Of a DNA stretch of 39,529 nt, positions 5,050 through 32,129 are shown in pieces. Location: assembly GCA_026982475.1 (NCBI GenBank), contig JALSHB010000212.1:1-39529 (forward strand), written 5' to 3'. The position numbers and the translations under genes were made by a program. Source of the DNA: Chromatiales bacterium. Lineage in GTDB: Bacteria > Pseudomonadota > Gammaproteobacteria > SZUA-152. The stretch's first letter is position 1, and each line of letters opens with the position of its first letter. The notes beneath the pieces are model-generated. The model saw only the letters and a program-made list of their open reading frames with translations. It did no database searches and was not told the origin of the DNA.

Positions 5050-5081
5050 ACTGTTCAAGAAAATCGATAGTGGGTACAGAC

Positions 5082-8069: not shown

Positions 8070-8152
8070 TGTGGGGTAACATGCGCGAGTTGCACTGACA
8101 ATAATTATTCGGTTTCTGTATTTTTGATTTAATGACGATGGAGGGAGGCTCT

Positions 8153-8577: not shown

Positions 8578-9240
8578 ATGAAAATGAAACAATTCTTCTT
8601 GGGGGTTGTGGCTTTGAGCGTGTTGCCGGTCGTTGCTGTTCGGGCAGAGGCTGCTCAGCCGCCATTGAAAGAGGTGAAGGCCGCGAAAGGCCATGTAAGC
8701 TCGGCAAACACCTTTAACCGCTTGTTGAAAAAGCCGAAAGCCAAGAATCTGCCGCCCGCAGAGGATGGTATCCACGATCCCGACAACGACAATACGCACG
8801 TCTTGCAGCCGCCGAAGATTGCCTATGATGGCCTGCCGACAACGCCATTCGGCAATTATGTGGACTGGGTGAAGGCGCTGGATGACAACCTTTTGCAGCC
8901 TCGCTATGATCGTTTTGATCCCACGATCGAGCCCTTGGTGATGGATCTGGATATTGTGCGCGAAGTGAAGTCTACGGTGCCGGACGTCGTGTTTCCGCAC
9001 AAACCGCATACGCAGTGGTTGCATTGCTCGAATTGCCACCCGAAGATATTTATCCCCCAGCGCAAGGCAAACGTGATGAACATGTCCGGCATACTGTTGG
9101 GTCAGCAGTGCGGCGTGTGTCACGGTAAAGTCGCTTTCCCTGTGACTACCCAATCGTGCACCAAGTGCCACTCCAAGCCGAAACCGGCCGATTGGAAGCC
9201 GCCGAAAAGTGAGACCAGCCTAAAGAATCCCTGGAACTAA
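8578..9240 (+). CDS. Triheme c7-type cytochrome 2
   Basis: A 220-residue protein with a signal peptide (about residues 1-23). The heme sites are CSNCH (150-154), CGVCH (178-182) and CTKCH (194-198), preceded by FPHKPHTQW, whose two histidines are likely distal ligands. A roughly 120-residue N-terminal extension carries EDGIHDPDND (residues 62-71), an acidic loop that might bind calcium. The same extension occurs in the protein at 11068. An intrinsic terminator follows at 9297. Probable role: electron transfer between the periplasm and the barrel or the cupredoxin protein. Confidence 0.88.
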   Translation: MKMKQFFLGVVALSVLPVVAVRAEAAQPPLKEVKAAKGHVSSANTFNRLLKKPKAKNLPPAEDGIHDPDNDNTHVLQPPKIAYDGLPTTPFGNYVDWVKALDDNLLQPRYDRFDPTIEPLVMDLDIVREVKSTVPDVVFPHKPHTQWLHCSNCHPKIFIPQRKANVMNMSGILLGQQCGVCHGKVAFPVTTQSCTKCHSKPKPADWKPPKSETSLKNPWN

Positions 9241-9328: not shown

Positions 9329-9399
9329 AATACGCATGGCATCGCTGTTCATAGTTGCTTCTGTTCTTCGGTTTTTCTAGGCAGGCGGGTATTGTGATT

Positions 9400-10983
9400 A
9401 TGTCGAATTCATCCATTAAAACCATTTCAACCCTTGTGTTTCTTTCAGTGTTTGGCCTTTGGGGCTGCGCGGCCACTGAGACGCGGACAACACCGCCAGC
9501 GGAGGAAGGGGCTACTGCAGATACACCGCTACCTGCAGAGGCTGACATCCAGTCTGCGGAGGTCTTGTCTTCTTCTGAGGGCGGCGAGTCCGCGGCCGCC
9601 GAATCGGACGCTGCGATGGTAGAGACCATGGGAGCAAAGGATGTCCGTGAGCCTGTGATCTCGGTCGAATCCATGCCTGCGGCGGCGACCTCTGGTCGAG
9701 AGGCAGCGGGCGGCGATGTATCGGCCGATGTCGTGACTTCTGCGCCTGCCGCTGCTGATGAACCTATCAAGCCAAGACCCGGCCAACACGTCGTTACACT
9801 GGGCAAGAAGGATCCGAGCCACCCCGCCTATGGCAAGGGGCATGCGATGGGCTTTATTCTTGATGGTGTGCCGGGGAAATCGATCGTCCTCGAACGTGGC
9901 AAGACTTATAGGTTCGTGATAAGAAGCGATCCCAAGCATGATGTCTACCTCTCAAGCAAGGAAATAGGTTGGGGCAGTGCGCCGGTTGTCGACGGCGTGG
10001 AGAGTGCGAACATTTACGAGGGCACGATGACGTTTACCCCCAGCAAAAGTACGCCAGACAAGGTTTATTACGCCTGTCGCAATCATCCCTACATGGGGGG
10101 AACCCTGTATGTCGTTGACCCGGGCGAGACCATTGAAATCGAGACGAGAAAGCCCACTGTAGGGGTCAAAGGGAGTGGCAAAGAACCGCAGGTGTCTGAG
10201 GCCAAGGTTAAGCAAAAGTTGATGTTTGCGGAGATGATGGTCAATGGCAAAGGCGCCAAGAGGGTGCTTGCCAGTAACAACGATGAGGCAAAGCGTTTGC
10301 TGGCCGCTGCAACCAGCGGCCTTGCTGCCAGTCGCGAGAAACTGCAGGCCGGGGCTCTGTCCGAGGCATTGGCCCTGGCGGATAAGGCCGTCAGCGATGT
10401 CGGCACCGCCTCAAGAATGGTGCCCAGCGAGGACGCAGCCGCTCAGCTCTCGCAGCGCCATGACGAACTCTGGCACGAGATCGAGGACTTTGAGGCATCC
10501 TATGAAAGCAATTATGCCCGCATGGCCAAGGCGGGTGGCGTTAGCAAGGATGCCGAATATGACAAGGCCAAGGTTGCCAGCCTGAAGGAAGCCGCGCGTG
10601 CTTTGGCGGCGAAGGGGGACTATGCCAAGGCCAACGCACGGCTTGAACAGGCCCAGGCCATTGTCACCCAAGGGCTGCACAAGATGCTGGATTCAAAAAC
10701 CCTGGTCTATGAGCTGAAGTTCGACTCGCCATCAGATGAATATGAGTATGAGTTGAAGCGGTTCACCGGCTATGAGGAATTGATACCGGTGGCTGTGGAA
10801 ATGAAAAAACCTGCGGCGGGAGCCCTGAAGCTGATGGACAGCTTTCTCGACAAGGCGCGCAAACGTCGTGACGAGGCAAAGGAAAAAGCAAGGCAGGGTG
10901 ACTATGGCGCAGCGGTAGGCATGTTGCAGCAGGCGACAAAGACTGTCCGGCGTGCCCTTCGCATGGTGGGCGTGACACAATAA
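9400..10983 (+). CDS. Cupredoxin-domain lipoprotein with C-terminal helical region
   Basis: A 527-residue lipoprotein (lipobox LWGC, Cys23). A long Ala/Glu/Ser-rich linker (about residues 25-120) leads to a cupredoxin fold (about 140-240). The type 1 copper ligands can be seen as H180 in PKHDVY and C226, H229 and M232 in CRNHPYMGG, the canonical His-Cys-His-Met set, so a blue-copper redox site is likely. The C-terminal half (about 260-527) is charged and helical, with Ala/Lys/Glu repeats and no recognised domain. It sits between two related triheme cytochromes, suggesting a membrane-anchored copper electron carrier in the same chain. The start at ATG 9400 is preferred to upstream 9355 because it places a proper lipoprotein signal at the N-terminus. 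Confidence 0.8.
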   Translation: MSNSSIKTISTLVFLSVFGLWGCAATETRTTPPAEEGATADTPLPAEADIQSAEVLSSSEGGESAAAESDAAMVETMGAKDVREPVISVESMPAAATSGREAAGGDVSADVVTSAPAAADEPIKPRPGQHVVTLGKKDPSHPAYGKGHAMGFILDGVPGKSIVLERGKTYRFVIRSDPKHDVYLSSKEIGWGSAPVVDGVESANIYEGTMTFTPSKSTPDKVYYACRNHPYMGGTLYVVDPGETIEIETRKPTVGVKGSGKEPQVSEAKVKQKLMFAEMMVNGKGAKRVLASNNDEAKRLLAAATSGLAASREKLQAGALSEALALADKAVSDVGTASRMVPSEDAAAQLSQRHDELWHEIEDFEASYESNYARMAKAGGVSKDAEYDKAKVASLKEAARALAAKGDYAKANARLEQAQAIVTQGLHKMLDSKTLVYELKFDSPSDEYEYELKRFTGYEELIPVAVEMKKPAAGALKLMDSFLDKARKRRDEAKEKARQGDYGAAVGMLQQATKTVRRALRMVGVTQ

Positions 10984-11067
10984 ATACCTTGGTTTGTTTC
11001 AGTCTTTGCCAATGGGAACTTGGAGTGTATGGGGACGCCCGTTCAAGCGTGGCGACTGAGTACTGGT

Positions 11068-11661
11068 ATGACTAGGATTATTGCTGACGACTTGTGTGTG
11101 TGGAAGCGCCTGCGGCGTTTGTGCGCTGGCATGGCCGCACCTATGGTGCTCGTGGTGGCGCCGGGGCTGCTTTCCGCCGAGGAAGGTGGCGGCCACTATC
11201 AATTGCATGGTGATGTGGTGGAGATTGCGGAGGATGGCATTCACGATCCTGATAACGATGCCGTCAATACTCTGCAGCCTCCGGCTGATGCCATGAAGGA
11301 CTTTCCTCGCGATTCACGGGGCATCATCAACTGGGTCGAAACGCTGGACCGTGGGCTGATTGCGCCCCGTACTGGAGTGACCGGTGACGAAAAGATGCAT
11401 TCGGTGGATTTCGATGTGATCTTTAAGAATACCGCGTCGATGCCCTATGTGCGTTTTCCGCATTTGCCGCATACCCAGTGGTTGACCTGCACGAATTGTC
11501 ATCCGGCGATCTTTTTGCCCCAGCGAGGCGGAAACTTCGTGACCATGGCGGCGATCATCGAGGGCGAATATTGTGGTGTCTGTCATGGCAAGGTCGCCTT
11601 TCCACCGATGGAGTGTAATCGATGCCACAGCGTCGCCCGGGAAAATGTCGGTTTGCGTTGA
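11068..11661 (+). CDS. Triheme c7-type cytochrome 3
   Basis: About 197 residues from ATG 11068; TTG 11020 and ATG 11029 are in-frame alternatives, and the start is uncertain because the n-region is long. A hydrophobic segment ending LLSA (about residue 37) would be the signal. The heme sites are CTNCH (141-145), CGVCH (169-173) and CNRCH (183-187), preceded by FPHLPHTQW. It is clearly paralogous to the 8578 protein: both share EDGIHDPDND, a NW/DWV-ETLD-like segment and CGVCHGKVAFP. Its last 40 bases overlap the start of the next lipoprotein gene, suggesting translational coupling. Confidence 0.86.
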   Translation: MTRIIADDLCVWKRLRRLCAGMAAPMVLVVAPGLLSAEEGGGHYQLHGDVVEIAEDGIHDPDNDAVNTLQPPADAMKDFPRDSRGIINWVETLDRGLIAPRTGVTGDEKMHSVDFDVIFKNTASMPYVRFPHLPHTQWLTCTNCHPAIFLPQRGGNFVTMAAIIEGEYCGVCHGKVAFPPMECNRCHSVARENVGLR

Positions 11662-12740
11662 TACCGCTGCTCACCCGTAGTCTGCTGCTGAGCGTAATCC
11701 TTGTGCTGCTGGCCGGCTGCAGTGTTGCCGAGCTTGAAAGGATCGCCACAGAGGGAGGCCCACTCAGCGCTTCATCTCCTTCGACCCCCATCCCTGCGCA
11801 GGCTGGCACGGCAGGTGCGCCGCCTTCGTCTGCTGACTCCGGCTTGTTGACCGTCGAGTTAGAGATCTTTCGTGGACAGCAGGATGTGCAGGGCACGATT
11901 GGACAATTCCGGCGGCTGGCGGCGGGGTCTGTCGATGAAGTGGTCTTGCGACAACCCGTGGCCGTCGGTGGTGTCGACAATTTGCTCTATATCGTCGACG
12001 CCATGCTGAAGGCTGTTTTCCGGTATGATCTGACGACCCAACTGTTTCGCCCCATTCTGGAGCTTGGAACACATTTCGTAGGTGATCCTGGCAGTATCTA
12101 TGTCGCCAAAGACCGCTCTTTTTATATCGTGGATACGCTGGGCAAGCAGGTGCTGCATTTTGCCGAGGATGGCGCCCTGCTGACTCGTTTTCAGGATCTT
12201 GCCAATCTGACCCGACCCGTGGATGTGGTGGTCGATGAGTTGACCGGCAATGTGTTCGTGGCTGATGGTTCATTCAGCCATGTTGTCGTCTTCAACTCAT
12301 TTGGCAAGGCCACGCGGGCGCTGGGTCGGCGCGGCTCCGGGCCGGGGCGCTTTCGTGCCATAACCGCCTTGGCGGTCGGCGCGGATGGGCTCTATGTCTT
12401 CGATCGCCTGGAAACGCCGCCGGTTCAAGTGTTGAGCTGGGATGGTTCCTTCCGGTATTCCTTTGGTGAAGATGTGTTGAACTACCCGCTTGCGGCGGTG
12501 GTTGACCGTGATCAGCGCGTCTATGTCAGTGAGCAGTCCGACGATACGTTGCGGGTCTTCCAGGATGGGAAGTTGCTGCTGACATTCGGTGGCGCCGGCT
12601 CGTCCCCTGGACGGTTTCGCATGGCGACCGGGTTGTGGGTCGATGGCGACCGCCTGTTCGTGGCGGACAGCCTCAACCGTCGAGTTCAGGTCCTGCGTAT
12701 AAATCCGGCCGCGGCGCTGCCCGCGGCCGGCGGGGAATAA
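11622..12740 (+). CDS. NHL-repeat lipoprotein 2
   Basis: A 372-residue lipoprotein (lipobox LLAGC, Cys33 from ATG 11622). A Pro/Ala/Ser-rich linker (about 45-70) leads to NHL-type blades with repeated IYVxD, VFVADGSF, LYVFDRL, VYVSEQ and LFVADSLNRRVQVL motifs. The ATG at 11622 has GGAG eight bases upstream but overlaps the triheme cytochrome by 40 bases; a TTG at 11658 overlapping its stop codon is an alternative. It is more divergent than NHL proteins 1 and 3 and lacks their WPxPPExPR motif. It is probably a propeller scaffold at the outer membrane; the partner is unknown. Confidence 0.82.
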   Translation: MPQRRPGKCRFALIPLLTRSLLLSVILVLLAGCSVAELERIATEGGPLSASSPSTPIPAQAGTAGAPPSSADSGLLTVELEIFRGQQDVQGTIGQFRRLAAGSVDEVVLRQPVAVGGVDNLLYIVDAMLKAVFRYDLTTQLFRPILELGTHFVGDPGSIYVAKDRSFYIVDTLGKQVLHFAEDGALLTRFQDLANLTRPVDVVVDELTGNVFVADGSFSHVVVFNSFGKATRALGRRGSGPGRFRAITALAVGADGLYVFDRLETPPVQVLSWDGSFRYSFGEDVLNYPLAAVVDRDQRVYVSEQSDDTLRVFQDGKLLLTFGGAGSSPGRFRMATGLWVDGDRLFVADSLNRRVQVLRINPAAALPAAGGE

Positions 12741-12747: not shown

Positions 12748-13815
12748 ATGCGTCGCTTGTCCCTTTTGTTGCTTGTTCTATTGATCGGCGGTTGCGCAGA
12801 AACCCGACAGGTCATGCGCTTTGGTGAAACCGCGCAGGAACACGTCTGGCCGCCACCGCCGGAAACGCCTCGCTACCGCTTTGTCGGCGAACTGACCGGC
12901 GAGGAGAATTTCGAGGCGAAGGAAAAGGGCGGGGCGGCGAACAAGTTGCGAGGCTTTTTCGGCGCCATCGTTGGTCTGGGGGGCAAGGCCAGCTTGCGGA
13001 ATATTTTGCAGCGGCCGCAGTCGGGGGTTGTCGACGCTACTGGCCGCATCCTGGTGACGGATGCGTCCAGGCTGGCGGTTTTTGTCTTCGACCCGGATGC
13101 CGGGACATTGTCGGTCTGGGATCAGGCAAGCAAGACCGCGAATTTTGCCTCCCCGGTGGGCATTTCCGTGGCGGCGAATGGCGACATTCTCGTTGCCGAT
13201 GCGGAACTGGGCGCGGTATTCCGCTTGAGCCCACAGGGCAAGCCGTTGGCGATCATCGGCCTGGGAGATTTCGGCCGGCCCACGGGCCTGGCGGTCGACC
13301 CCGAGAGCGGCAGGATCTACGTTGCCGACACGGCGGAGCACAACATCAAGGTTTTTGCCGATGATGGCCGTCTGCTGAATATCATAGGTCGCCAGGGTAT
13401 CGGCGAGACGACCTTCAATGCGCCCACCCATCTGGCCTTTCGTGATGGCCGGCTATATGTGACGGATACCTTCAATGCCCGGGTGCAGGTGCTTGACTCA
13501 GAGGGCAACTTCCTTCGATCCCTGGGAGAGCGAGGACTGTATTTGGGGAATTTGGTCAGGCCCAAGGGGGTTGCCGCGGACTCGGATGGGAATATCTATG
13601 TTATTGAGTCCTTTCATGATTATTTGTTAATATATGACCAAGATGGTCGGTTTTTGCTGCCTATCGGGGGTACCGGCTCAGGGATCGGACAGTTTTATCT
13701 GCCTGCCGGGGTCTGGATCGATGGCCGCGACCGGGTCTATATCGCTGACATGTTCAACGGGCGGGTCGTGGTGTTGCAGTATCTGACACACGAATCCGCA
13801 GATTCAAAACCGTGA
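12748..13815 (+). CDS. NHL-repeat lipoprotein 3
   Basis: A 355-residue lipoprotein with a short signal and lipobox IGGC (Cys16). Residues about 33-45 carry VWPPPPETPRYRF, the same motif as in NHL lipoprotein 1. Six NHL-like blades follow, with IYVADTAEHNIKVF, LYVTDTFNARVQVL, IYVIESF and VYIADMFNGRVVVL as clear examples. It begins seven bases after NHL lipoprotein 2 and lies directly upstream of the 11-heme cytochrome, so the three are probably one transcript. The repeated pairing of this lipoprotein type with an OmcE-type cytochrome (here and at 2632/4057) suggests a conserved partnership, perhaps in surface attachment or polymer assembly; that is inference. Confidence 0.86.
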   Translation: MRRLSLLLLVLLIGGCAETRQVMRFGETAQEHVWPPPPETPRYRFVGELTGEENFEAKEKGGAANKLRGFFGAIVGLGGKASLRNILQRPQSGVVDATGRILVTDASRLAVFVFDPDAGTLSVWDQASKTANFASPVGISVAANGDILVADAELGAVFRLSPQGKPLAIIGLGDFGRPTGLAVDPESGRIYVADTAEHNIKVFADDGRLLNIIGRQGIGETTFNAPTHLAFRDGRLYVTDTFNARVQVLDSEGNFLRSLGERGLYLGNLVRPKGVAADSDGNIYVIESFHDYLLIYDQDGRFLLPIGGTGSGIGQFYLPAGVWIDGRDRVYIADMFNGRVVVLQYLTHESADSKP

Positions 13816-13898: not shown

Positions 13899-16583
13899 AT
13901 GAAACAGTTATTTCCCACACGGCATTTTGTTCTTATCTTGTTTGCCGTTTTTCTAGGGGTGGAAAATGCGGCTGCGGGCGCTCTGCCCAGTAGTCGCGTT
14001 TCCGATGTTCGCAATACCAAGCACAATCTTTCGGCCAATCCGAGCGCCGTCAGCCGCAATGTGCAGGCAGACAGCAACAGTGAAATCTGTGTCTTCTGCC
14101 ATACACCGCATGCCGCAAATCCCGGTCAGGGACCGTTGTGGAATCGCCAGTTATCCTCGGCGACCTACGACACCTACAACAGCGGTTCGCTGGACGCCAC
14201 GGGCGAAGGCATCGCCCTGGATCAACCCAATGGGGTCTCCAAGCTTTGTCTGTCCTGTCACGATGGCACCATCGCCATTGGCTCGGTGCGTGTGCTCAAC
14301 GGTACCTGGGCGAGTGGCCCCATCGCCATGAGCGGCACCAACATCGATGGCACCATGCCGGATGGCGGTGTCGGCGCGGAGTCCGGTTATACCCGGCGCC
14401 TGGGTACGGACCTGACCAACGACCACCCCATTTCCTTTACCTATGATACGGCGCTGGCGCTACGGGACGGTGAGCTGCGAGACCCGGCCACGAATCCCCA
14501 TATTGGCAACCGTAGTTCAGGCGACTCACCCCATGTCCCCCTGGACAACGGACAGGTGCAGTGCAACAGCTGCCACGATCCGCATGTCCGAGACGCCGGC
14601 GACCCGGGAAAGAGCATCAAATTCCTGCGCCTGAACCGCTTCCAGAGAGTCTCGCCGCTGACCAATACCTTCAACGAGACCAACGACATCATCTGCCTGG
14701 CCTGCCACGAAAAGGCCGGCTGGGTCGGTTCCGCGCATGCCACGGCCGAGGTGGCCAATGAGGTCTACACCTCTAGCGCCGCCAATCTGCGTGAATTCCC
14801 GGCGGGTACCCAGGTCTGGGAGTCGGCCTGCCTGGCCTGCCACGACACCCACAGCGTGTCAGGCTCTCGCCGGCTGCTGCGCGAGGGTACCGACGGCCCC
14901 ATCAGCGCCAGTGGTGCGCGCATTGGTGGCTCCTCCGCCATCGAAGAGACCTGCTTTGCCTGTCATTCCAGCGATGGTGGGACCCTGACCGCGCAAGGCA
15001 TGAACACGGAAGTGCCGGACATCAAGTCCGATTTCGACTTGCCTTTCCACATGCCGATTCGTGACTCCGAGCAGCTGGCGGGCTATGAAGTGCATGACAT
15101 CGGCACCGTCGGCAGCGACCTTCAGGCGCACGGCCAGCGGGGCAAGGACTTCATCGAATCCCAGGCCCTGCTGGGCAAGGGCCACCCCAACAACCGCCAT
15201 GTGGAGTGTACAGATTGCCACAATCCGCATCGCGTGGTACGCCGTCGCCTGTTCAACGAAAGCAACGTCGGCGGTGTGATGGATGCGGCGGGAACCCACG
15301 ATCACTGGAACACGCCGCATACCAACATTGCCTCCGGCGTGCTGCGTGGCACCTGGGGCGTGGAGCCGGTCTATGCATCCAATGACTTCAATGCCGAGCC
15401 CACGAGCTTCATCGTCAAGCGCGGTGATCCGGGTGAGTCGGCGTCGACGGCCGTGTCCGCGCCGTATGTGACGCGTGAATATCAGGTCTGCCTGAAATGC
15501 CACTCGAACTATGCCTATGACACGCCGCCCATGCTGGGCCTGAGTCCGGTAACGACCCCGAAGGGTGTCAATCACATGGATCAGTACACCAACCAGGCGC
15601 GCGAATACAATTCGCCGGACAGCCATAAGGGGGAGTTCGGTAGTGGCGGCGGTGGCGGCATGGGCGGCGGCATGGGCGGCGGCTGTAGCGGCGGTGGCAT
15701 GGGGGCTGACGGTGGCGCGGCTCCTGCCTTCAATGACTGTAATCACCGCTCCTGGCATCCGGTGATGAACGATACGGGCCGGACCCCCAGCGTGCGCAAT
15801 GCCAGTGCCAACAACTGGACTCCGCCGTTCAATGCCGCGGTGGGCACGCAGACCATGTATTGCACCGATTGTCATGGCTCCGACACACCGCCAGGCACGG
15901 TGGACCCGGATGGGCAAGGCAATGAAAACGGCGCCCCGTGGGGACCACATGGTTCAACGAACTACTTCCTGCTCAAGGGCGACTGGAGCGGCAATGCGCC
16001 GGGTTCGCCGGAGAACGACTTCACCAACCGCCCGGGGACCGGCGATGACGATAGTGGCACTGACACTTCCGATCATCTGTGCTTCAAGTGCCATGAATAC
16101 GAGCAGTACGCGGCGACCACCGGCACCACCCAGCCCAGTGGTTTTTCCGGCATGGGCTGCATGTGTCTCGGCGGGATGGGTGGCATGGGTGGCATGGGTG
16201 GCGGGAATTGGCACCGGGCCCACGAGGCCATCACGAACAACTTTCGCTGCAACCTGTGCCATGTCGCCGTGCCGCATGGCTGGAAGAACAAGAATTTCCT
16301 CGTCAACCTCAACGATGTCGGTCCCGAGGGCGGCCTGCCGCCCGGCACCCAGGTGCGCAACAACACCACCTCGGGCTACGTCAATGGCCCGTACTACAAC
16401 CGTGCCGTGCTCAAGGTTGCCAATTTCGCACGCAGCGGGACCTGGCGGGCCAATGATTGCGGCTCTGTGGGGGCGCCGGGGAATGGCCGGCTGGGGGTGG
16501 GCTGGATGAACGGCGGCATGGGCGGTGGCATGGGCGGTGGCATGGGCGGTGGCGGTTCGGAAGCCTGCAATAATGTGCCCTGA
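13899..16583 (+). CDS. 11-heme extracellular-type cytochrome A (OmcE-like module plus seven-heme extension)
   Basis: An 894-residue exported protein with a signal peptide ending NAAA (residue 26). Eleven CXXCH sites begin at about residues 64, 117, 222, 266, 311, 352, 437, 531, 655, 728 and 784. Residues 35-275 repeat the OmcE-like pattern of the 4057 protein (NTKHNLS, CVFCHTPH, PLWN, CLSCHDGT, TNDHPIS, CNSCHDPH, CLACH) with all four distal histidines; the remaining seven hemes form an added C-terminal region I do not recognise. Three Gly-Met-rich tracts (15639, 16149, 16512) are absent or much reduced in paralog B. A non-heme GCMC pair and a C-terminal NDCGS/SEAC pair may form disulfides or bind metal. 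The start at 13899 is preferred over 13863 because it opens the signal peptide. It pairs with the double-propeller gene downstream. Likely an outer-surface electron-transfer protein; the redox partner is unknown. Confidence 0.85.
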   Translation: MKQLFPTRHFVLILFAVFLGVENAAAGALPSSRVSDVRNTKHNLSANPSAVSRNVQADSNSEICVFCHTPHAANPGQGPLWNRQLSSATYDTYNSGSLDATGEGIALDQPNGVSKLCLSCHDGTIAIGSVRVLNGTWASGPIAMSGTNIDGTMPDGGVGAESGYTRRLGTDLTNDHPISFTYDTALALRDGELRDPATNPHIGNRSSGDSPHVPLDNGQVQCNSCHDPHVRDAGDPGKSIKFLRLNRFQRVSPLTNTFNETNDIICLACHEKAGWVGSAHATAEVANEVYTSSAANLREFPAGTQVWESACLACHDTHSVSGSRRLLREGTDGPISASGARIGGSSAIEETCFACHSSDGGTLTAQGMNTEVPDIKSDFDLPFHMPIRDSEQLAGYEVHDIGTVGSDLQAHGQRGKDFIESQALLGKGHPNNRHVECTDCHNPHRVVRRRLFNESNVGGVMDAAGTHDHWNTPHTNIASGVLRGTWGVEPVYASNDFNAEPTSFIVKRGDPGESASTAVSAPYVTREYQVCLKCHSNYAYDTPPMLGLSPVTTPKGVNHMDQYTNQAREYNSPDSHKGEFGSGGGGGMGGGMGGGCSGGGMGADGGAAPAFNDCNHRSWHPVMNDTGRTPSVRNASANNWTPPFNAAVGTQTMYCTDCHGSDTPPGTVDPDGQGNENGAPWGPHGSTNYFLLKGDWSGNAPGSPENDFTNRPGTGDDDSGTDTSDHLCFKCHEYEQYAATTGTTQPSGFSGMGCMCLGGMGGMGGMGGGNWHRAHEAITNNFRCNLCHVAVPHGWKNKNFLVNLNDVGPEGGLPPGTQVRNNTTSGYVNGPYYNRAVLKVANFARSGTWRANDCGSVGAPGNGRLGVGWMNGGMGGGMGGGMGGGGSEACNNVP
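15639..15704 (+). repeat. Gly-Met tract 1 in cytochrome A
   Basis: Twenty-two codons, mostly GGC/GGT with ATG, encode GSGGGGGMGGGM followed by GGGCSGGGMG. The tract lies between hemes 8 and 9 and contains one non-heme cysteine. Paralog B has only a short HKGGGISLGADGG here. Confidence 0.9.
16149..16205 (+). repeat. Gly-Met tract 2 in cytochrome A
   Basis: Nineteen codons encode GMGCMCLGGMGGMGGMGGG between hemes 10 and 11. It contains a CMC cysteine pair. Paralog B has CGMMC at the same place but no Gly-Met run. Confidence 0.9.
16512..16556 (+). repeat. Gly-Met tract 3 in cytochrome A (12-base tandem units)
   Basis: Tandem copies of a 12-base unit GGCGGTGGCATG encode GGMGGGMGGGMGGGG just before the C-terminal SEACNNVP. 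Paralog B reads only MVGGSEACTNVP here. The exact DNA repetition points to recent growth by slippage. Confidence 0.9.
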
Positions 16584-16619
16584 CCCGCATTTGCCAAGGT
16601 CGGGGCCTGTATCACTCAC

Positions 16620-18815
16620 ATGATGTTGGATGTCCGCATTGCTCTGCCGCAAGGCAGGTGGCAGGTCGTTTGCAGGCGGTTCACGGCGGCTGTCTTGATG
16701 CTGGCGCTGGGGGGCTTGTCCTCGGCGCTGGCCGGTCCCCAGCGGTTTGCCTTCAGCGTCAATAACCTCGATGCCAGCCTGGCCCGCTATACGGTCGATA
16801 CCGAGACCGGCCAGCTGCGCTTTCTCGACTACATGCCGCTCGGCAAATCCACCCCTGAAGTGGTGCTGGACCCCTCGGGACGCTTTCTCCTCGCCACCTC
16901 GCAGTCCATCGACCGCGTGTATGTCTTCCGTCTGGATCACAGCAACGGTGAACTTGCCCCGGTGCCGGGCTCGCCCTTCGACGTCAAGGGCAGGGCGCCC
17001 TTCGCCATCGTCTTCCACCCCTCGGGGCGCTTTCTCTACATGGCGCATCGCTATGCCGGCGTGGGCGCCTATGCCTTCGACGGCGAGACCGGCGCCGTCA
17101 CCCCCTTGCCCGGTTCGCCCTATCCGGCTCAGAGTCATCCCCGCAGTGTGGTGCTGCACCCCTCCAGTCGTTTCCTCTATGCCATGAATGCTTATTCGAA
17201 CAGCATCTCGACCTTTCGGCTGGATCAGGAAACCGGGGTATTGACGGAGATGCCGGGTTCGCCGATCACCGTTGGCGAGATGGGGCAGATCGATTACCTG
17301 GCGCAGCGCATGCAGGATGTGCCGGACAGCGCAGGCGGCCTGCCCTATCACATGACCCTGGATCCGCAGGGGAAGTTTGCCTTCGTCGCCAATGCGGCCT
17401 CCGCCAACATCAGCGTGTTTCGGCTCGATGCGGAGGATGGACATCTGTCCGAGGTCGAGGGCAGTCCCTTCCCCACCGGTTTCAATCCCTACAGCCTGAC
17501 CGTGCATCCCTCCGGCCGTTTCGTCTATGTGGCAAGGCCCCGGGACAACCTGATAGAGGCCCACGCCCTGAACATGCAAACGGGCCGCCTGACACTGCTG
17601 CCGGGCTCGCCCTTTTCCGCTGGTGGCGAGATGCCGGCCGCCATCACCTTCAATGCCGACGGCCGCTATGGCTACGTGATCAACATGCTCACCAGCGATG
17701 TGGTGCAGATGGCGGTGGATCCGGATACGGGGGCGCTGGAAATCCTCGAAGTGGTGCGGACGCGCTCCGCACCCTGGGACTTTACACTGGCGGAAGGCGA
17801 TGAGCCGACGCCCGCCAAGGCGCAGGTATACGCCACCCTGGGGGCGAACGGGCTGAGCCGCTTGCGGATCGGCGCCGATGGTCAGCTGCGCCAGTCTGCC
17901 ACGGCAACCGCCGTCCACGGGGTCGCCGTGGCGGTCACGCCGGATGGCAAACGCGCCTATGTCGCGGATCGTGACAAGGGCGCCATAAACGTGTTCCGCT
18001 TCGACCCGGCGAGTGGCGATTCTCGACCGCTGGCCGAGGGCGTGGTCGAGGCCGGGGCGCTGCCCAGCGATATCGCCGTCGATCTCAACGGCTGGTACCT
18101 GTATGTCACCAATGCCGGCGATAACAGCCTGTCCATCTATTACCTCGATCCCGAGACGGGACTGCCCAAGGCGGTGCGTGGCTCGCCCGTCAGCACCGGC
18201 CAGCGACCCGTGTTTGTTTCCCTGGACCCGGCGTCACGTTATGCCTACGTGGTGAACAATGGCTCCGACAACATTTCCGTCTACCGTTACCGCAACAACG
18301 TGACGCCACTGATCTTCGAGAGCGTAAAGCACGGCTCGCCCTATGCCGCCGGCAAGGCGCCTGTCGCCCTGGCGGTGGACCCCACCGGCCGCTACGCCTA
18401 TGTCGCCAACAGTGGCTCCGATGACATTTCCGCCTATCGCATCCATCACCAGACCGGGGCGCTTTCGGCACTGCCGGGTTCGCCCTTCGGGGCGGGGCGG
18501 CACCCGCTGGCGCTGGCGGCGCATCCCAATGGCCGCTTCCTGTACGTCATCAACCGTGATTCGGCCGACCTGGTCGTCTATCGCATAGAGACGGCCCTGG
18601 GCGCGATTGCGCCGGTGGGGAAACCGCTCAAGCTGCCGTTGACGCCGAAGCGCCTCTGGTTGTCGGCCACGGGAGACGAGGCCTATGTGCTTCCCGCCGA
18701 TGGCAAATACCTGCTGCGCCTGTCTCTCGATGCGGAGAGCGGCGAGGCACGGCTGCGCAGCAGCACGAAGTTGCCCAGCCCCGTTCTCGACCTGACGGTC
18801 GTTTCCAGCCCCTGA
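16620..18815 (+). CDS. Exported double beta-propeller protein A (lactonase/YncE type)
   Basis: A 731-residue protein with a signal peptide ending SALA (about residue 38). The whole mature part consists of repeats of the form HPSGRFLYxxN-xSNSISxFRLD-TGxLxxxPGSPF, the pattern of the seven-bladed lactonase/YncE-like propeller family; the length suits two propellers in tandem (about 39-395 and 400-731). Family members include 6-phosphogluconolactonase, but an exported version beside a cytochrome is more likely a binding partner than a sugar enzyme. It follows cytochrome A by 36 bases. The ribosome site is weak. It is paralogous end to end with the protein at 21599. Confidence 0.82.
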   Translation: MMLDVRIALPQGRWQVVCRRFTAAVLMLALGGLSSALAGPQRFAFSVNNLDASLARYTVDTETGQLRFLDYMPLGKSTPEVVLDPSGRFLLATSQSIDRVYVFRLDHSNGELAPVPGSPFDVKGRAPFAIVFHPSGRFLYMAHRYAGVGAYAFDGETGAVTPLPGSPYPAQSHPRSVVLHPSSRFLYAMNAYSNSISTFRLDQETGVLTEMPGSPITVGEMGQIDYLAQRMQDVPDSAGGLPYHMTLDPQGKFAFVANAASANISVFRLDAEDGHLSEVEGSPFPTGFNPYSLTVHPSGRFVYVARPRDNLIEAHALNMQTGRLTLLPGSPFSAGGEMPAAITFNADGRYGYVINMLTSDVVQMAVDPDTGALEILEVVRTRSAPWDFTLAEGDEPTPAKAQVYATLGANGLSRLRIGADGQLRQSATATAVHGVAVAVTPDGKRAYVADRDKGAINVFRFDPASGDSRPLAEGVVEAGALPSDIAVDLNGWYLYVTNAGDNSLSIYYLDPETGLPKAVRGSPVSTGQRPVFVSLDPASRYAYVVNNGSDNISVYRYRNNVTPLIFESVKHGSPYAAGKAPVALAVDPTGRYAYVANSGSDDISAYRIHHQTGALSALPGSPFGAGRHPLALAAHPNGRFLYVINRDSADLVVYRIETALGAIAPVGKPLKLPLTPKRLWLSATGDEAYVLPADGKYLLRLSLDAESGEARLRSSTKLPSPVLDLTVVSSP

Positions 18816-18970
18816 ACGGGCCTGAGTTATCGGTCCGGCCAGCGAATACTTGGCCGCCTGGCATGTCGTTTTCCGTGATGCAGCCCTCAAGTCATGAACA
18901 AATGCGCCGATAAAGGCTCTGACTCTAGCACTGTCCGCGCCGGGCAGCCGCATTCACCATCCGAGGGGCC

Positions 18971-21595
18971 ATGAAACAGAACTGGAAGCCGGTCGTCCTT
19001 GCCGTATCGTTCGCCGTTACCAGTGTTGTCGCCAGCCTGTGGCCGGAGGCGCTCGAGGCCGGCGGCCTGCCCAGCAGCCGCGTCTCGGACATCCGCAACA
19101 CCAAGCACAACCTCTCCCGTCTTTCGAGCCAGGCCAGTCGGGACGTGCAGGCGAGCACGGAGGATGAGTTGTGCGTCTTCTGCCATACCCCCCACAGTGC
19201 GAACATGCAGGAAGGACCGCTGTGGAACCGCAACCTTTCCACCGCTACTTACGATACCTACAACTCAGGCTCGCTGGACGCCACCGCCGAGGGCGTTGCG
19301 CTGGACCAGCCCAATGGCGTGTCAAAGCTCTGTCTGTCCTGCCACGACGGCACCATCGCCATTGGCGCGGTGCGGGTGCTGAATGGCGAATGGGCCAGCG
19401 GCCAGATCGCCATGACCGGCGTCGAGGCCGACGGCACCATGCCTGCCGCGCTGGGTGAAAATACCGGCTTCACCCGTCGCCTGGGTACCGACCTGACCAA
19501 CGATCACCCCATTTCGTTCCGTTACGACACCGCCCTGGCCACCGCGGACGGCGAATTGCGCGACCCCAATACCTCGCCGCACATCGGCGTGCGCCAGCCC
19601 GGCGTGAACCCGCTGGTGCCGCTGGACAACAACAACGCCGAGGTGCAGTGCAACAGCTGCCACGACCCCCACATCCGCGACGCCGCCGATGCCACCAAGA
19701 GCATCAAGTTCCTGCGCCTGAATCGCTTCCAGAAGGTCTCGCCCACCACCACGGTGTTCAACGAGACCACCGACATCATCTGTCTGGCCTGTCACGACAA
19801 GGCCGGTTGGGTGGGTTCGGCGCACGCCACCGCCGAGGTGGCCAATGAGGTCTATACTGACGCCGCCGCCGACCTGCGCGACTTTCCCAACAGCACCTCG
19901 CCCGACGGCCCCACCGCCGTGTGGCAGAGCGCCTGCCTGGCCTGCCATGACACCCATAGTGTGGCGGGTTCACGGCGCCTGCTGCGCGAGGGCACCGATG
20001 GCCCCATCGGCCCCAGCGGCGAGCGCCAGGGTGGGGCGGCGGCTATCGAGGAGACCTGTTTCGGTTGCCATTCCAGTGACGGCGGCACCCTCACCTCACA
20101 GGGCCTGAATACCGAGGTGCCGGACATCAAGACCGATTTCAACATGGCCTACCACATGCCGATCCGCAACAGCGAGCAGGTGGCGGGGGTGGAGATGCAT
20201 GACATCGGCACCCTGGGATTCGATTCGCGGGCGGTGAGCCAGCGCGGCAAGGACTTCATCGAGTCCCAGGCCGCCCTGGGCAAGGCCAGCCTGGGCGGCA
20301 GCCTCAACAATCGCCACGTGGAATGCACCGATTGCCACAACCCGCACCGCGTGGTGCGCCGGCGCAACTTCTTCGACAGCAATCTCAATGGCGTCATGGA
20401 CGCGGCCGGCACCCATGAACACGACCTGACCAACGGCGCGGCGCACACCAACATCGCCTCCGGCGTGCTGCGCGGCGCCTGGGGCGTGGAGCCGGTGTAC
20501 GCCAGCAATGACTTCAACACCGCGGCGTCGGACTATATCGTCAAGCGCGGCGACCCTGGCACCAGTACCTCGACCCTGGTGACAGAACCCTACGTGACGC
20601 GTGAATATCAGGTCTGCCTGAAGTGCCATTCCACCTATGGCTACGACACCCCGCCCAACCTGGGTGCCAGCGGCGTCACCACCCCGTCGGGCGTGAACAA
20701 CATGAGTCAGTACACCGATCAGGCGCGGGAATACAACTCGCCGGATACCCACAAGGGCGGGGGGATTTCGCTGGGGGCCGATGGCGGCGCCGATCCGCTT
20801 TTCAACACCAACAACCACCGCAGCTGGCACCCGGTCACCAATGACACGGGGCGTACCACCGCGGTTCGCCAGGCCGATGCCAACAACTGGATCACCCCCT
20901 TCAACAATGCGATTGGCACCCAGACCATGTACTGCACCGACTGCCATGGCTCGAATACCGCGGCGGGTACTGTGGACCCGGACCCTGGCCAGGAAAACGG
21001 CGCCGCATGGGGACCGCACGGGTCGAGCAACTACTTCCTGCTCAAGGGCGACTGGAGCGGCAACGCGCCGGGCTCGGCGACCAACGACTTCACCAACCGC
21101 CTGGGCACCGGTGAAGACACGGCGTCCAGAGATCACCTGTGTTTCAAGTGCCACGAGTACGAGCAATACGCCTCCACCGCCGGCGTCACCCAGGCCAGTG
21201 GCTTCGGCGGCTCTTCCTGCGGCATGATGTGCTCGCCGGGCACCACGCGCATCAACATGCACCGCTTCCACGTCGCCCAGGTGACCAACTTCCGCTGCAA
21301 CATGTGTCATGTGGCCGTGCCCCATGGCTGGAAGAACAAGGCCTTCCTGGTCAATCTCAATGATGTGGGGCCGGAAGGCGGTTTCGCCTCCACCGGGAAT
21401 CAGGTGCGAAACAACACCACGGCTGGCTACGTCAATGGCCCCTACTACAATCGCGCCGTGCTCAAGGTGGTGAATTTCGCCAGCAGCGGCACTTGGCGGG
21501 CCAACGACTGCGGTTCCACGGGGGCCCCGGGCAATGGCCGTACCGGTGTGAGCTGGATGGTGGGGGGGTCGGAGGCCTGCACCAATGTGCCTTAG
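18971..21595 (+). CDS. 11-heme extracellular-type cytochrome B
   Basis: An 874-residue exported protein with a signal peptide ending LEA (residue 30). It has eleven CXXCH sites in the same order as cytochrome A (CVFCH, CLSCH, CNSCH, CLACH, CLACH, CFGCH, CTDCH, CLKCH, CTDCH, CFKCH, CNMCH), with the first four in the same OmcE-like framework (NTKHNLS to CLACH). Similarity to A is high over the full length, so the two arose by duplication. It lacks the long Gly-Met tracts but keeps a non-heme CGMMC pair between hemes 10 and 11 and the NDCGS/SEAC pair near the C-terminus. A GAGG lies six bases upstream of the ATG. The 155 bases before it hold no gene and no clear promoter, so it may be read through from cassette A. 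Confidence 0.86.
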   Translation: MKQNWKPVVLAVSFAVTSVVASLWPEALEAGGLPSSRVSDIRNTKHNLSRLSSQASRDVQASTEDELCVFCHTPHSANMQEGPLWNRNLSTATYDTYNSGSLDATAEGVALDQPNGVSKLCLSCHDGTIAIGAVRVLNGEWASGQIAMTGVEADGTMPAALGENTGFTRRLGTDLTNDHPISFRYDTALATADGELRDPNTSPHIGVRQPGVNPLVPLDNNNAEVQCNSCHDPHIRDAADATKSIKFLRLNRFQKVSPTTTVFNETTDIICLACHDKAGWVGSAHATAEVANEVYTDAAADLRDFPNSTSPDGPTAVWQSACLACHDTHSVAGSRRLLREGTDGPIGPSGERQGGAAAIEETCFGCHSSDGGTLTSQGLNTEVPDIKTDFNMAYHMPIRNSEQVAGVEMHDIGTLGFDSRAVSQRGKDFIESQAALGKASLGGSLNNRHVECTDCHNPHRVVRRRNFFDSNLNGVMDAAGTHEHDLTNGAAHTNIASGVLRGAWGVEPVYASNDFNTAASDYIVKRGDPGTSTSTLVTEPYVTREYQVCLKCHSTYGYDTPPNLGASGVTTPSGVNNMSQYTDQAREYNSPDTHKGGGISLGADGGADPLFNTNNHRSWHPVTNDTGRTTAVRQADANNWITPFNNAIGTQTMYCTDCHGSNTAAGTVDPDPGQENGAAWGPHGSSNYFLLKGDWSGNAPGSATNDFTNRLGTGEDTASRDHLCFKCHEYEQYASTAGVTQASGFGGSSCGMMCSPGTTRINMHRFHVAQVTNFRCNMCHVAVPHGWKNKAFLVNLNDVGPEGGFASTGNQVRNNTTAGYVNGPYYNRAVLKVVNFASSGTWRANDCGSTGAPGNGRTGVSWMVGGSEACTNVP

Positions 21596-21598: not shown

Positions 21599-23776
21599 AT
21601 GACGCCGGATTCCTCCCCCCCGGTCCGTTCGTTTCGTCTCGCAAGTACCTGGCGGTGGTTGGCTGTGCTCGTCGGCCTGTTGCTCGTGGCCGGGGCCCAG
21701 GCCGCGCCGGCCCGTTTTGCATTTACCGTCAATGGCCTGGACTTCAGCCTCTCCCGCTACCGGGTCGAGGCCGATGGCGGGCTGCGCCATCTGGGCCACA
21801 TTCCCCTGCCCAAATCACCGCCGTCGGTGGGGGTTGATCCCTCGGGCCGCTTCGTGCTGGCCATATCGAAGGCCGAAGGTCTCATCAACGTCTTCCGGCT
21901 GAACCCCGTCAACGCCGCCTCGACCCCCGTGCCCGGCTCACCCTTCAAGAGCGGGGCCCGCTCTCCCTTCGATATCGTCTTTCACCCCTCGGGCCGCTTT
22001 CTCTACGTGGCGTCGCGCTTCAGCGGCGTCGGTGCCTATGCCTTCGACGATGAGAGCGGCGCCCTCAGCCCCTTGCCAGGCTCTCCCTTCAAGGCCGGCA
22101 AGCGCACCCGCTCGCTGGTGATGCATCCCTCGGGGCGCTTTGTCTATGCCGTCAATGGCTATTCCAACAGCATCTCCGCCTACGCCATCGATGCGCAAAG
22201 CGGCGTGCTGCGTGAGCTGCCGGACTCGCCCGTTACCGTGGCCGAGATGGACGCCATCGATTACCGCGCCCTGAAGATGGAGGATGTGCCTGCCGGTGCG
22301 GGCGGCATTCCCTACCATATCGCGCTGGACCCGGCCGGGCGCTTCGCCTTCGTGGCCAACTGGGCGGCGGCCAGTGTCAGCGTGTTTCGCATCGACGCCG
22401 ACAGCGGCCGCCTGACGGCGGTGGCGGGCAGCCCCTTTTTCACCGGCTTCAATCCCTACAGTATTACCGTGCATCCCTCCGGGCGTTTCGTCTATGTCAC
22501 CCAGTGGTCCAGCAGCGAGATCGCGGTGCATGCCCTCGATCCACGCACGGGCCGGCTCAGCCCCGTGCCGGGCTCGCCCTTCGCCAGCGGTGGCGTGGGG
22601 CCCGTGGCGCTGGTCTTCAACGCCGATGGCAGCCAGGTCTATGTGCCGAACTACGAATCCAATGAGGTGGCCCTGTTGGATGTGGATGAGGCCACGGGCG
22701 CGCTACGGCTGCGGGAGACCATAAAGACCCGCTCCGGCCCCTGGGACCTGACCCTGGCCGAGGGCGAGGCCATGCCGCTGTCGCCGCCCCGTTTGCTTGC
22801 GGCACGGGCCTCGGCCGGCGTGGCCTTGCTCGATCGGCGCCAAGGTCGGCTGTCGGCTGCCGCGACGGCGGGCGAGGAGACTGGGGCCGTGGCGGTGCGT
22901 CCCGACGGCCGCTTCGCCTACGCCGCCAGCGCCGACAGCAGCACCCTCACGACCCTGCGTATCGACGCCGCGGGGCTCGAGGCGGTGGCGGGCGGGACCG
23001 TGGCCACGGGCCGGCGTGCCACGGCGCTGGCCATCGACGTCAACGGCTGGTACCTGTATGCCGTCAACAGCGACGACGACAGCCTGACGGCCTGGTACCT
23101 CGATCCCGACAGCGGCATCCCCCGCCCATTGCGGCGCGCGCCGGCGCGCACCGGCCGGCGGCCCGTGGCGGTGACCCTCGACCCTGCGGCGCGCTACGCC
23201 TTCGTGGTGAATGCGGGCTCCAACAACATTTCCGTGTTCCGCTATCTCACCAGCACCATGCCGCTGCTCATCGACAGCCGCAAGTACGGCTCCCCCTATG
23301 CCGCCGGCCGGGAACCCGTGGCCCTGGCGGTGGAGCCGAACGGCCACTACGCCTATGTGGCCAATGCCGGCTCCGACGACATCTCGGCCTACCGTATCCA
23401 TCATCAGAGCGGCGCCCTCTCGGCCCTGCCCGGTTCGCCCTTCAAGACGGCGAGGCGGCCGGTGGACCTGACCGTGCATCCGTCACGGCGCTGGCTGTTC
23501 GTCGCCAGCCATGAGGACGCGCAAATCTCGGTGTATGGCATCGAAAGGGGCCTGGGGGCGCTGACCCGGGCCGTGTACGAGCTGAAGCTGCCGGTGGCGC
23601 CGAAATCCCTGCGGCTGGCGCCGGCGGGGGACATCCTGTGGGTCTTGTCGGAAGATGGCCGGCGCGTGTTGCGCCTGGCCGTCGACGAGGGCACGGGTGG
23701 CTTGAAGCTGCTGAGCGAAGAGCGCTTGCGGCAGCCTATCGTCGATCTGGCGGTGCTGGCTGGATTTCGCAGGTGA
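21599..23776 (+). CDS. Exported double beta-propeller protein B (lactonase/YncE type)
   Basis: A 725-residue protein with a signal peptide ending AGAQA (residue 35). It has the same tandem lactonase-type propeller architecture as the protein at 16620, with repeated HPSGRFVYVxxxSxSISAYxID and PGSPF motifs and nearly identical stretches such as DDISAYRIHHQSGALSALPG. It starts three bases after the stop of cytochrome B, so the two are translationally linked. Its last 41 bases overlap the 3' end of the methyltransferase gene on the other strand. Function is not known; tight coupling to the cytochrome suggests an equimolar partner or an assembly factor. Confidence 0.83.
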   Translation: MTPDSSPPVRSFRLASTWRWLAVLVGLLLVAGAQAAPARFAFTVNGLDFSLSRYRVEADGGLRHLGHIPLPKSPPSVGVDPSGRFVLAISKAEGLINVFRLNPVNAASTPVPGSPFKSGARSPFDIVFHPSGRFLYVASRFSGVGAYAFDDESGALSPLPGSPFKAGKRTRSLVMHPSGRFVYAVNGYSNSISAYAIDAQSGVLRELPDSPVTVAEMDAIDYRALKMEDVPAGAGGIPYHIALDPAGRFAFVANWAAASVSVFRIDADSGRLTAVAGSPFFTGFNPYSITVHPSGRFVYVTQWSSSEIAVHALDPRTGRLSPVPGSPFASGGVGPVALVFNADGSQVYVPNYESNEVALLDVDEATGALRLRETIKTRSGPWDLTLAEGEAMPLSPPRLLAARASAGVALLDRRQGRLSAAATAGEETGAVAVRPDGRFAYAASADSSTLTTLRIDAAGLEAVAGGTVATGRRATALAIDVNGWYLYAVNSDDDSLTAWYLDPDSGIPRPLRRAPARTGRRPVAVTLDPAARYAFVVNAGSNNISVFRYLTSTMPLLIDSRKYGSPYAAGREPVALAVEPNGHYAYVANAGSDDISAYRIHHQSGALSALPGSPFKTARRPVDLTVHPSRRWLFVASHEDAQISVYGIERGLGALTRAVYELKLPVAPKSLRLAPAGDILWVLSEDGRRVLRLAVDEGTGGLKLLSEERLRQPIVDLAVLAGFRR

Positions 23777-25824: not shown

Positions 25825-25853
25825 CCCCGGCCCGACATTTGAATGGCAATCGT

Positions 25854-26861
25854 ATGGTGCGAATTTTACAGGCCCTGGCCTCTCTGAAACTGACCCTGGC
25901 GGGCATGGTGTTGCTGGGCATCGGCGCCGCGCTGAGCTATGGCAACCCTGTGGAGACCTCCATCTGGGTGCTGGTGGCGCCGATGGCCCTCTTGGCCCTC
26001 AATCTTGCGGCGGCAATTCTCACCAACCCGCGCATCAACCGCCAGCCTGGTCTGCTAGTGTTTCATGTCGGCTTGCTGGGGCTGGTGCTGTTGGCGGGCA
26101 TCGGCCGTCTCACTCATCTCGATGCCCATCTGGAGATTGCCCAGGGACAGTCTTTCAGGCCGGAGCTGATGATGGATGTGCGCAAGGGGCCATGGCATGC
26201 CGGGGCGCTGGACAAGGTGGCCTTTACCCAGGGGCGCTTTACTGTGGACTATGCGCCGCAGCTGCGCCGCGGGCTGACCCACAGCCAGGTGTTCGTGCCA
26301 CAGCCGGATGGCACCGTGCTGGAACTCGACGTGGGTGATGACCGTCCGTTGGTGTTGGAGCGTTATCGCTTCTACACCACCCACAACAAGGGCTTCGCGC
26401 CCCTGTTGACATGGATTCCACACGAGGGCGAAGCGGTCACCGGGCTGGTGCACATGCCATCTTATCCCCTGTTCGAATACAAGCAGGACAACCGCTGGAC
26501 ACCGCCCGGCACCGAAGAGGACATCAAGTTCTGGCTGCAGCTGGATACGGGCCTGACCCTGGAGGACTCATGGGTGCTGGATGGTCGGAACTCGCGTGGG
26601 GTGTTGGTGGTCACAAGCGGGGATCAGCGTATTGAGCTGAAACCAGGGGAAGAGGCGCAGTTGCCCCATGGCCGCTTGCGCTTTGAACGCCTGACCACCT
26701 GGATGGGGTATAGGGTATTTTATGATCCCACGATACAGTGGTTGTTCTTCGTCAGCGTTGCCGGTGTCTTTGGGCTGGGGCATTTTTTCTGGAAAAGATT
26801 GAGTCTTGTGGCATGGACAGACGATGACAAGGGTCCAGACAGCAAGGGAGGAACCGCGTGA
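25854..26861 (+). CDS. resB: System II cytochrome c maturation protein ResB (short form)
   Basis: A 335-residue membrane protein, much shorter than typical ResB/CcsB (often over 450 residues). Three spans lie in the first 90 residues and one near the C-terminus, with a periplasmic domain between. In family members a histidine in span 3 and one in the last span handle heme; here H71 (in VFHVGLLGL) and the His of GLGHFFWKR are present. With CcsA it exports heme and attaches it to apocytochrome CXXCH motifs. The ATG at 25854 is preferred over the TTG at 25839. It overlaps ccsA by four bases (GTGA). Confidence 0.82.
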   Translation: MVRILQALASLKLTLAGMVLLGIGAALSYGNPVETSIWVLVAPMALLALNLAAAILTNPRINRQPGLLVFHVGLLGLVLLAGIGRLTHLDAHLEIAQGQSFRPELMMDVRKGPWHAGALDKVAFTQGRFTVDYAPQLRRGLTHSQVFVPQPDGTVLELDVGDDRPLVLERYRFYTTHNKGFAPLLTWIPHEGEAVTGLVHMPSYPLFEYKQDNRWTPPGTEEDIKFWLQLDTGLTLEDSWVLDGRNSRGVLVVTSGDQRIELKPGEEAQLPHGRLRFERLTTWMGYRVFYDPTIQWLFFVSVAGVFGLGHFFWKRLSLVAWTDDDKGPDSKGGTA

Positions 26862-27706
26862 ATAACATCGTTGCCGAGCAACCCTGGTTATGGGCCGGCC
26901 TGGTGGCCTATCTGGTGGCGACCCTGGTGGCCATGTGGGGCTTGTCGCCGCGCCTGGCAGGCGTAGAGGGAGGGGTGGCCCGCCAGCACGAAAAGGTGGT
27001 GCTGGCCTCCATTTCCCTAGGCGTGCTATTGCTGACCATTGCCATCGCCGTGCGTTGGGTGCGCATCGGCCATGGGCCGTGGCTCAATCTGTTCGAGCTG
27101 CTGATGAGTCAGTTGTGGAGCCTGGGATTGATCTATGCGCTGTTGTACTGGCGCCTGCCGGGATTGCGCCCCAGCGCCGCCATCGTGATGCTGGTGATGT
27201 GGATACTGGGCAGTTGGGTATTGTTGCTGGAGCCGCTGCCCAGCCATTTTCCCGCCACTTATTACAATTTCTGGAAGTGGTTTCATGTCGGTTTGGGCAA
27301 GGTCTTTCTTGGTCTGTTGCTGGCTGGTGTCGGACTCGCCGGGGTGATGATCCTGCGCCGCACCGAGCGGGGTCGGCAGTGGTTTCGCGCCATGCCCACT
27401 GACGCCGTGATCGACAGGCTGGCCTGGCGTCTGATGATGCTGGCATTGGTGTTCGATAGCCTGATGCTTATTACCGGCGCGGTTTGGGCGCAGGATGCCT
27501 GGGGTCGCTACTGGGCCTGGGACGCCCTGGAAACCTCGTCCTTTTTCACCTGGCTACTGCTGGCGGTGGGGCTGCATGTGCGACTCAGCTTCAAGCTGCC
27601 GCCATGGCTCAGTGGCGTGATTATCATCAGTATTTTCGTACTGGCGTTTGTCACCTATTTTGGCATTCCATATATCAGCCCCGCGGCACACAAGGGTATG
27701 GTTTGA
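26858..27706 (+). CDS. ccsA: System II cytochrome c synthase component CcsA (ResC)
   Basis: A 282-residue membrane protein of the heme-handling superfamily, with about eight spans. The heme-binding WWD motif is present as WAQDAWGRYWAWDALE (about residues 210-225). Classical CcsA has WDPKE here, so the Pro-Lys pair is replaced by Ala-Leu. Candidate heme-ligand histidines are H72 (RIGHGPW), H143 (KWFHVG) and H278 near the end. The GTG start overlaps the resB stop and has GGGAGGAA just upstream. Together with resB it makes a second maturation system beside the full Ccm operon. Confidence 0.87.
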   Translation: MNNIVAEQPWLWAGLVAYLVATLVAMWGLSPRLAGVEGGVARQHEKVVLASISLGVLLLTIAIAVRWVRIGHGPWLNLFELLMSQLWSLGLIYALLYWRLPGLRPSAAIVMLVMWILGSWVLLLEPLPSHFPATYYNFWKWFHVGLGKVFLGLLLAGVGLAGVMILRRTERGRQWFRAMPTDAVIDRLAWRLMMLALVFDSLMLITGAVWAQDAWGRYWAWDALETSSFFTWLLLAVGLHVRLSFKLPPWLSGVIIISIFVLAFVTYFGIPYISPAAHKGMV

Positions 27707-27719
27707 GGGAACTATCGCA

Positions 27720-30537: not shown

Positions 30538-30542
30538 TAAGG

Positions 30543-30601: not shown

Positions 30602-30644
30602 ATAACGTCAGCGGCCTGTCACGGCGGGTTGCGGAGAGTGATCA

Positions 30645-31585: not shown

Positions 31586-31590
31586 ATGGT

Positions 31591-32052: not shown

Positions 32053-32129
32053 ATGCAACGGCCTCTCCGGGCAGACGCATTCAGTGATTCCAAACAGGCA
32101 ACGCCAAAGCAAGGCGAGGTAACAGACTC

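Follow-up and report, generated by a model that had tools for sequence, protein, structure and literature searches.

The Uet gene cluster and its surroundings

The analysed window, a stretch of 39,529 nucleotides from a Chromatiales bacterium (GCA_026982475.1, contig JALSHB010000212.1), carries two long open reading frames with exactly 11 CxxCH motifs each (13899–16583, with an alternative start at 13863, and 18971–21595) and a shorter one with four (4057–4971). The genes are arranged in the order tetraheme cytochrome, peptidyl-prolyl isomerase, presumed barrel, three triheme cytochromes together with UetF, two NHL-type proteins, and undecaheme cytochrome, which matches the published Uet cluster. 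The name ('undecaheme electron transfer') was reportedly given by Eddie et al. in 2022. The gene order uetABCDEFGHIJ has been published for Tenderiales and was also found in Gallionella (PMC10734462), and a cluster with the same order is present in Leptothrix (PMC13386937). UetA is described there as a tetraheme, UetDEG as trihemes and UetJ as an undecaheme protein (PMC10734462, PMC13386937). Because both gene order and heme counts agree with PMC10734462, the two 11-heme reading frames are identified as two copies of UetJ in a uetA–J cluster. Uet has been reported from cathode-oxidising and iron-oxidising bacteria, and in Ca. Tenderia growing on a cathode its trihemes rank with the genes of highest expression (PMC5371394).

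All uet genes of the window lie on the forward strand. UetA (4057–4971), named by synteny with the published cluster (PMC10734462), is a free OmcE-type tetraheme cytochrome (7TFS, E = 7e-24) that ends with CLACHTK just past heme 4. Individual Uet genes recur in 28–34 of 34 large Uet loci, a range in which the UetA count is inflated since UetA also matches the head of UetJ. UetB (5013–6092) is a PpiC/SurA-type peptidyl-prolyl isomerase (Rotamase, 4e-16) with a homologue in 28 of these loci. UetC (6294–8069), presumably an outer-membrane beta-barrel, had no match in Pfam or NCBIfam and was named by its position; a homologue is present in 31/34 loci (median identity 27%). The published UetC is a beta-barrel porin (PMC10734462). 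UetD (8132–8551), UetE (8578–9240), and UetG (11020–11661) are c7-type triheme cytochromes of the nanowire_3heme family TIGR04257 (6e-18, 1e-17, and 6e-17, respectively). Between the latter two, UetF (9355–10983) belongs to no curated family and was likewise named by position; its counterpart in Ca. Tenderia is a TPR-type protein (PMC5371394). The NHL-type proteins UetH (11622–12740) and UetI (12748–13815) were assigned by synteny and are each found in 33/34 loci.

The same 11 hemes and the same uetA–J order are thus found here as in the Uet clusters of Ca. Tenderia electrophaga, Gallionella, and Leptothrix. The window differs from them in having two UetJ copies, of which copy 1 matches copy 2 at 76%, in the lactonase/YVTN-type two-domain propeller that follows each copy (16620–18815 and 21599–23776), and in an orphan third UetJ elsewhere in the same genome (G000:C99:12614-15079, L136), which is flanked by unrelated genes outside any Uet cluster. 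Since propeller matches are rare (11 of 80 UetJ loci, 3 of the 34 large ones), UetJ and propeller were probably duplicated as a unit.

Further downstream, also on the forward strand, are genes for a ResB-like protein (25839–26861; 5e-9) and a CcsA/CcmC-type cytochrome c assembly protein (26858–27706; 4e-19). Together with a TPR gene they span positions 25839–28469, and they are conserved 3' of UetJ in the 34 large loci (ResB-like in 33, CcsA-type in 31, TPR in 30). The window additionally contains a System I ccm operon with CcmB, CcmC, CcmF and a CycH-type gene (29512–36462). Uet may be accompanied by a dedicated second set of cytochrome maturation proteins (ResB/CcsA).

The OmcE-type head of UetJ

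According to the initial annotation, residues 35–275 of both 11-heme proteins repeat the motif order of the tetraheme protein. All seven of its motifs are indeed present in all three proteins, and in the alignment the modules of the 11-heme proteins are 39–42% identical to the tetraheme, with NTKH, CHTPH, PLWN, CLSCHDG, LGTDLTNDHP, CxSCHDPH, FLR, and CLACH in register. This head, the first ~240 residues of both UetJ copies, corresponds to a full OmcE module. It comprises heme motifs 1–4 at 14088–14708 in copy 1 and, in copy 2, approximately residues 35–277 (19073–19801), with four CxxCH motifs and four invariant distal histidines. These histidines (46, 75, 179, and 234 of copy 2), whose retention had also been claimed, are conserved in 75/75 relatives and are present in UetA as well. 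As the head is kept in 80/80 full-length copies and its four histidines do not vary, it is under selection.

Over the aligned modules, the head is 37% identical to Geobacter sulfurreducens OmcE (7TFS), with which both the head and the whole of UetA share the four heme motifs, the four distal histidines, PLWN, and NDHP. Identity to 9YUQ, a tetraheme-only 'putative multiheme cytochrome c' of 218 aa solved with 16 chains and having the same four-heme layout, is 37–38%. When the whole 11-heme protein was searched with phmmer, matches were significant only to OmcE (3e-25) and 9YUQ (9e-17), in residues 36–240. A profile built from 91 heads and tetrahemes matched 7TFS end to end (E = 1.9e-40, profile positions 4–236) and 9YUQ with 6e-33, and the next solved multiheme cytochrome was NrfA with 0.002. 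It might be argued that such likeness reflects no more than generic multiheme motif spacing, and masking controls confirmed that multihemes do share similarity driven by CxxCH. That reading is refuted by the profile search, in which OmcE and 9YUQ surpassed all other solved multiheme proteins by 30–40 orders of magnitude, and it leaves unaccounted for the common non-heme residues PLWN, LGTDLTNDHP, and FLR; its probability is negligible.

In OmcE (232 aa), 9YUQ, UetA, and the tetrahemes found beside the compact relatives described below, the chain stops no more than a few residues past heme 4. UetJ, in contrast, runs on at exactly this point for ~600 residues with seven hemes. As judged from sequence, each UetJ consists of a complete OmcE-type module and a conserved body with seven hemes, which is fused to the module directly behind heme 4 on the C-terminal side. 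Its chain does not end after heme 4 as that of OmcE does, so that UetJ as a whole carries an OmcE domain but is not itself an OmcE.

The body, which in copy 2 contains heme motifs 5–11 (19934–21310), had been noted as unrecognised. This holds for its structure, as no solved relative was found, but not for the region itself, which has already been described as part of UetJ (PMC10734462, PMC13386937). In AlphaFold2 models, whole UetJ reached a pLDDT of 66.8, with values of about 70–90 in many stretches of the body and below 50 in the head; modelling of the head with 91 sequences gave 47. Neither model provided a usable head fold (about 30–50 over the head), and at this head confidence Foldseek returned no significant PDB match for either. 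The possibility that hemes 5–8 and 9–12 constitute a second and a third OmcE copy was suggested by a first profile comparison (97%, E = 4e-11). It was rejected, as an unrelated octaheme control scored equally and no signal was left after masking of CxxCH, the sole remaining matches being a 10–12 column overlap of the two regions.

The MtrC/OmcA, UndA, and OcwA types are extracellular terminal cytochromes with 9–11 hemes that act together with a conduit. UetJ is similar to such proteins (PMC12203936) in being extracellular, in its heme number, and in its association with a conduit, but no significant sequence match between UetJ and any of these types was obtained. MtrC/MtrF domain and decaheme models matched UetJ through the heme motifs only. 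The OmcA/MtrC and DmsE models remained far below their cut-offs (34–46 bits against a cut-off of 192 for DmsE-type TIGR03508), and TIGR03507 gave no match.

Eleven hemes need eleven distal ligands. Outside the heme motifs, UetJ has 15 histidines that are invariant in 75/75 sequences; the head contributes four of these and the seven-heme body 11. In OmcE, heme 2 is ligated by a histidine of the neighboring subunit (PMC12203936). As 15 exceeds the 11 required, the count is compatible with a heme 2 site filled either from inside UetJ or by a neighbor. An invariant Met-Pro lies between hemes 6 and 7 of UetJ (Met396 of copy 2, 20156–20158), preceded by a His that varies to Arg, whereas the compact and intermediate relatives have an invariant His-Pro at this position. 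Met396 is thus a candidate for a His-to-Met axial-ligand switch; by raising the potential, a His/Met heme would be well suited to the uptake of electrons from a cathode.

Spread, compact relatives, and pairing with a free tetraheme

When a single genome of each species was scanned, the seven-heme body was found to have at least 488 relatives, and the best 80 of these loci were examined. They span Gamma-, Beta-, and Alphaproteobacteria and include the named isolates Ramlibacter alkalitolerans, Ramlibacter albus, and Noviherbaspirillum denitrificans. Within the best 80 loci, all 80 full-length UetJ reading frames have 11 motifs and the OmcE head, and shorter ones end at contig ends; the search for other proteins with a 4+7 layout thus found it in every full-length relative examined. 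This uniformity indicates that the layout is a fixed and old architecture. Stand-alone C-terminal halves seen in some genomes all run into contig ends and were discarded as assembly fragments, and a search of plasmids revealed no UetJ. Upstream of UetJ in N. denitrificans, the usual Uet trihemes are replaced by a protein in which at least 22 CxxCH motifs were counted (L105:2-2728).

UetJ has further relatives that share its OmcE head and the order of its 11 motifs: a compact family of nine proteins of about 560–600 aa, and five intermediates that come from one other family. An additional C-terminal CX3CH motif is present in 9/9 compact proteins and a canonical twelfth CxxCH in 3/5 intermediates; near this site UetJ has one invariant cysteine (847) without the following CH. 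All nine compact-type loci with enough flanking sequence contain NHL genes and, upstream, an OmcE-like tetraheme that ends just past heme 4. Most lack the trihemes, in whose stead genes for an octaheme and for a NapC-like multiheme protein are found. In loci L115–L122, the compact 12-motif protein is usually followed by the octaheme and a NapC-like seven-heme protein with the motif CLMCHKYP. The compact loci look like an alternative conduit around the same pair of tetraheme and long protein. No compact-family match was found in 399 genomes sampled across the phylum, a sample that holds no known positive and is thus uninformative.

A free OmcE-like tetraheme and an OmcE-headed 11- or 12-heme protein are hence linked in the genome across differing conduits, and because this pair is kept while the conduit changes (barrel and trihemes versus octaheme and CLMCHKYP protein), we regard the two as constant partners at the level of gene linkage, from which physical contact does not follow. 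The seven-heme part was found in 42 of 369 genomes of the class. A close UetA is present in 39 genomes, every one of which also has UetJ, so that 39 of the 42 UetJ genomes contain both. An OmcE module of any kind was found in 51 genomes of this sample, accompanied in 50 by an OmcE-headed long protein (in one of these cut off by the contig end after six hemes); only one genome differs, its divergent tetraheme being encoded on a contig of 3.5 kb.

In a phylogenetic tree, the heads of UetJ cluster with those of the compact family (support 99/95), apart from UetA; deeper branches are weakly supported, in particular the placement of OmcE and 9YUQ. Because the two groups of heads form this common cluster, UetJ and the compact family probably go back to one ancestral, old fusion. 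A recent origin of the UetJ head as a copy of the adjoining uetA was rejected, as UetA is placed with five-heme paralogues in another part of the tree. These five-heme OmcE-like proteins, whose additional CxxCH is inserted between hemes 2 and 3, form a separate branch near UetA. Their genes occur in the same genome as the window (L135:6307-7497) and at L138:3989-5041 and 6320-7249. In relatives, two of them flank an NHL gene and adjoin two 3-heme proteins.

UetJ as a possible end-piece of UetA wires

To our knowledge, cytochrome nanowires are known as homopolymers. Tip proteins have been mentioned as a possibility (PMC9473688). Starting from the observed module homology, fusion point, pairing, and synteny, we tentatively prefer a model in which UetJ is an adaptor or cap at the end of UetA wires, while regarding it as somewhat less than probable. 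UetA would polymerize extracellularly like OmcE, and at the filament end the OmcE-type head of UetJ would replace one UetA subunit, docking through the OmcE-type contact between a histidine and the heme of its neighbor. The seven-heme body would then fill the place of the next subunit, so that the wire stops and an electrical contact is formed. This contact could be located at the base, where the wire would be joined to the UetC barrel and the UetDEG trihemes, or at the outer tip, where it would meet an electrode or mineral. Since Uet has been reported from cathode-oxidising and iron-oxidising bacteria, electrons would most likely flow inward. The earlier proposal that the 11-heme proteins cap, branch, or join a wire is indirectly supported by the near-constant pairing with a tetraheme across unrelated conduits.

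Three findings count against an end-piece. No UetA filaments are reported in the literature surveyed. The orphan third UetJ lies outside Uet clusters, which suggests that UetJ can be produced independently of UetA, and because invariant histidines outnumber hemes, the lent-ligand site of the head could be filled within UetJ. The latter two would fit a monomeric extracellular terminal cytochrome of the MtrC/OcwA kind, in which one of the 11 body histidines supplies the lent ligand and UetA acts separately. Published work indeed treats UetJ as the extracellular component of a porin-cytochrome complex (PMC10734462). We consider a monomer a serious, if rather doubtful, alternative, for it accounts neither for the retention of all OmcE interface motifs nor for the free OmcE-type tetraheme that is found with OmcE-headed proteins across different conduits. 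The pairing data favor the end-piece, and the surplus histidines and the orphan copy keep the monomer alive.

UetJ might also polymerize with itself into a new type of wire whose 11-heme subunits are joined via the head, which has everything an OmcE subunit needs; the duplication in the window and the third copy in the genome would be in line with this. Yet the body of ~600 residues, which sets in precisely where the heme 4 region ends, may leave no room for a following subunit, and the constant free tetraheme would have no explanation, which makes a homopolymer improbable. Even less likely is that UetJ branches UetA wires or bridges them laterally instead of ending them, as nothing in the sequence of hemes 5–8 points to another OmcE-like interface: they did no better than the octaheme control, and nothing remained after CxxCH masking.

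In its widest form, the end-piece model would make UetJ a dedicated nanowire end-piece and the OmcE-like wires of Pseudomonadota heteropolymers with a specific base or tip, with one heme retuned by the His-to-Met switch for high-potential uptake; this combination we put forward with considerable reservation. If UetJ is an end-piece, the uetA/uetJ pair makes testable how cytochrome nanowires start, end, and connect to their conduit, and the Uet system for electron uptake, which until now has been classed as a porin-cytochrome complex, would gain a connection to OmcE-type wires. Neither the locus nor the protein class is new, and we claim no priority for the OmcE link, which is not mentioned in PMC10734462, PMC13386937, or PMC5371394. 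For the constant tetraheme pairing, the compact 12-motif relatives, and the ResB/CcsA neighbors no prior description was found either; the naming paper of Eddie et al. (2022) lay outside both comparisons. The pair is present in the culturable species R. alkalitolerans, R. albus, and N. denitrificans.

A recurrent feature of these extracellular multihemes, in both the UetJ and the compact families, is the occurrence of Gly/Met-rich, Cys-containing low-complexity loops or tails at variable positions. In UetJ copy 1 (13899–16583) they include GGGGGMGGGMGGGCSGGGMG and MGGMGGMGGG, and in the compact family such stretches are found at the C-termini of the proteins from L116, L120, and L121.
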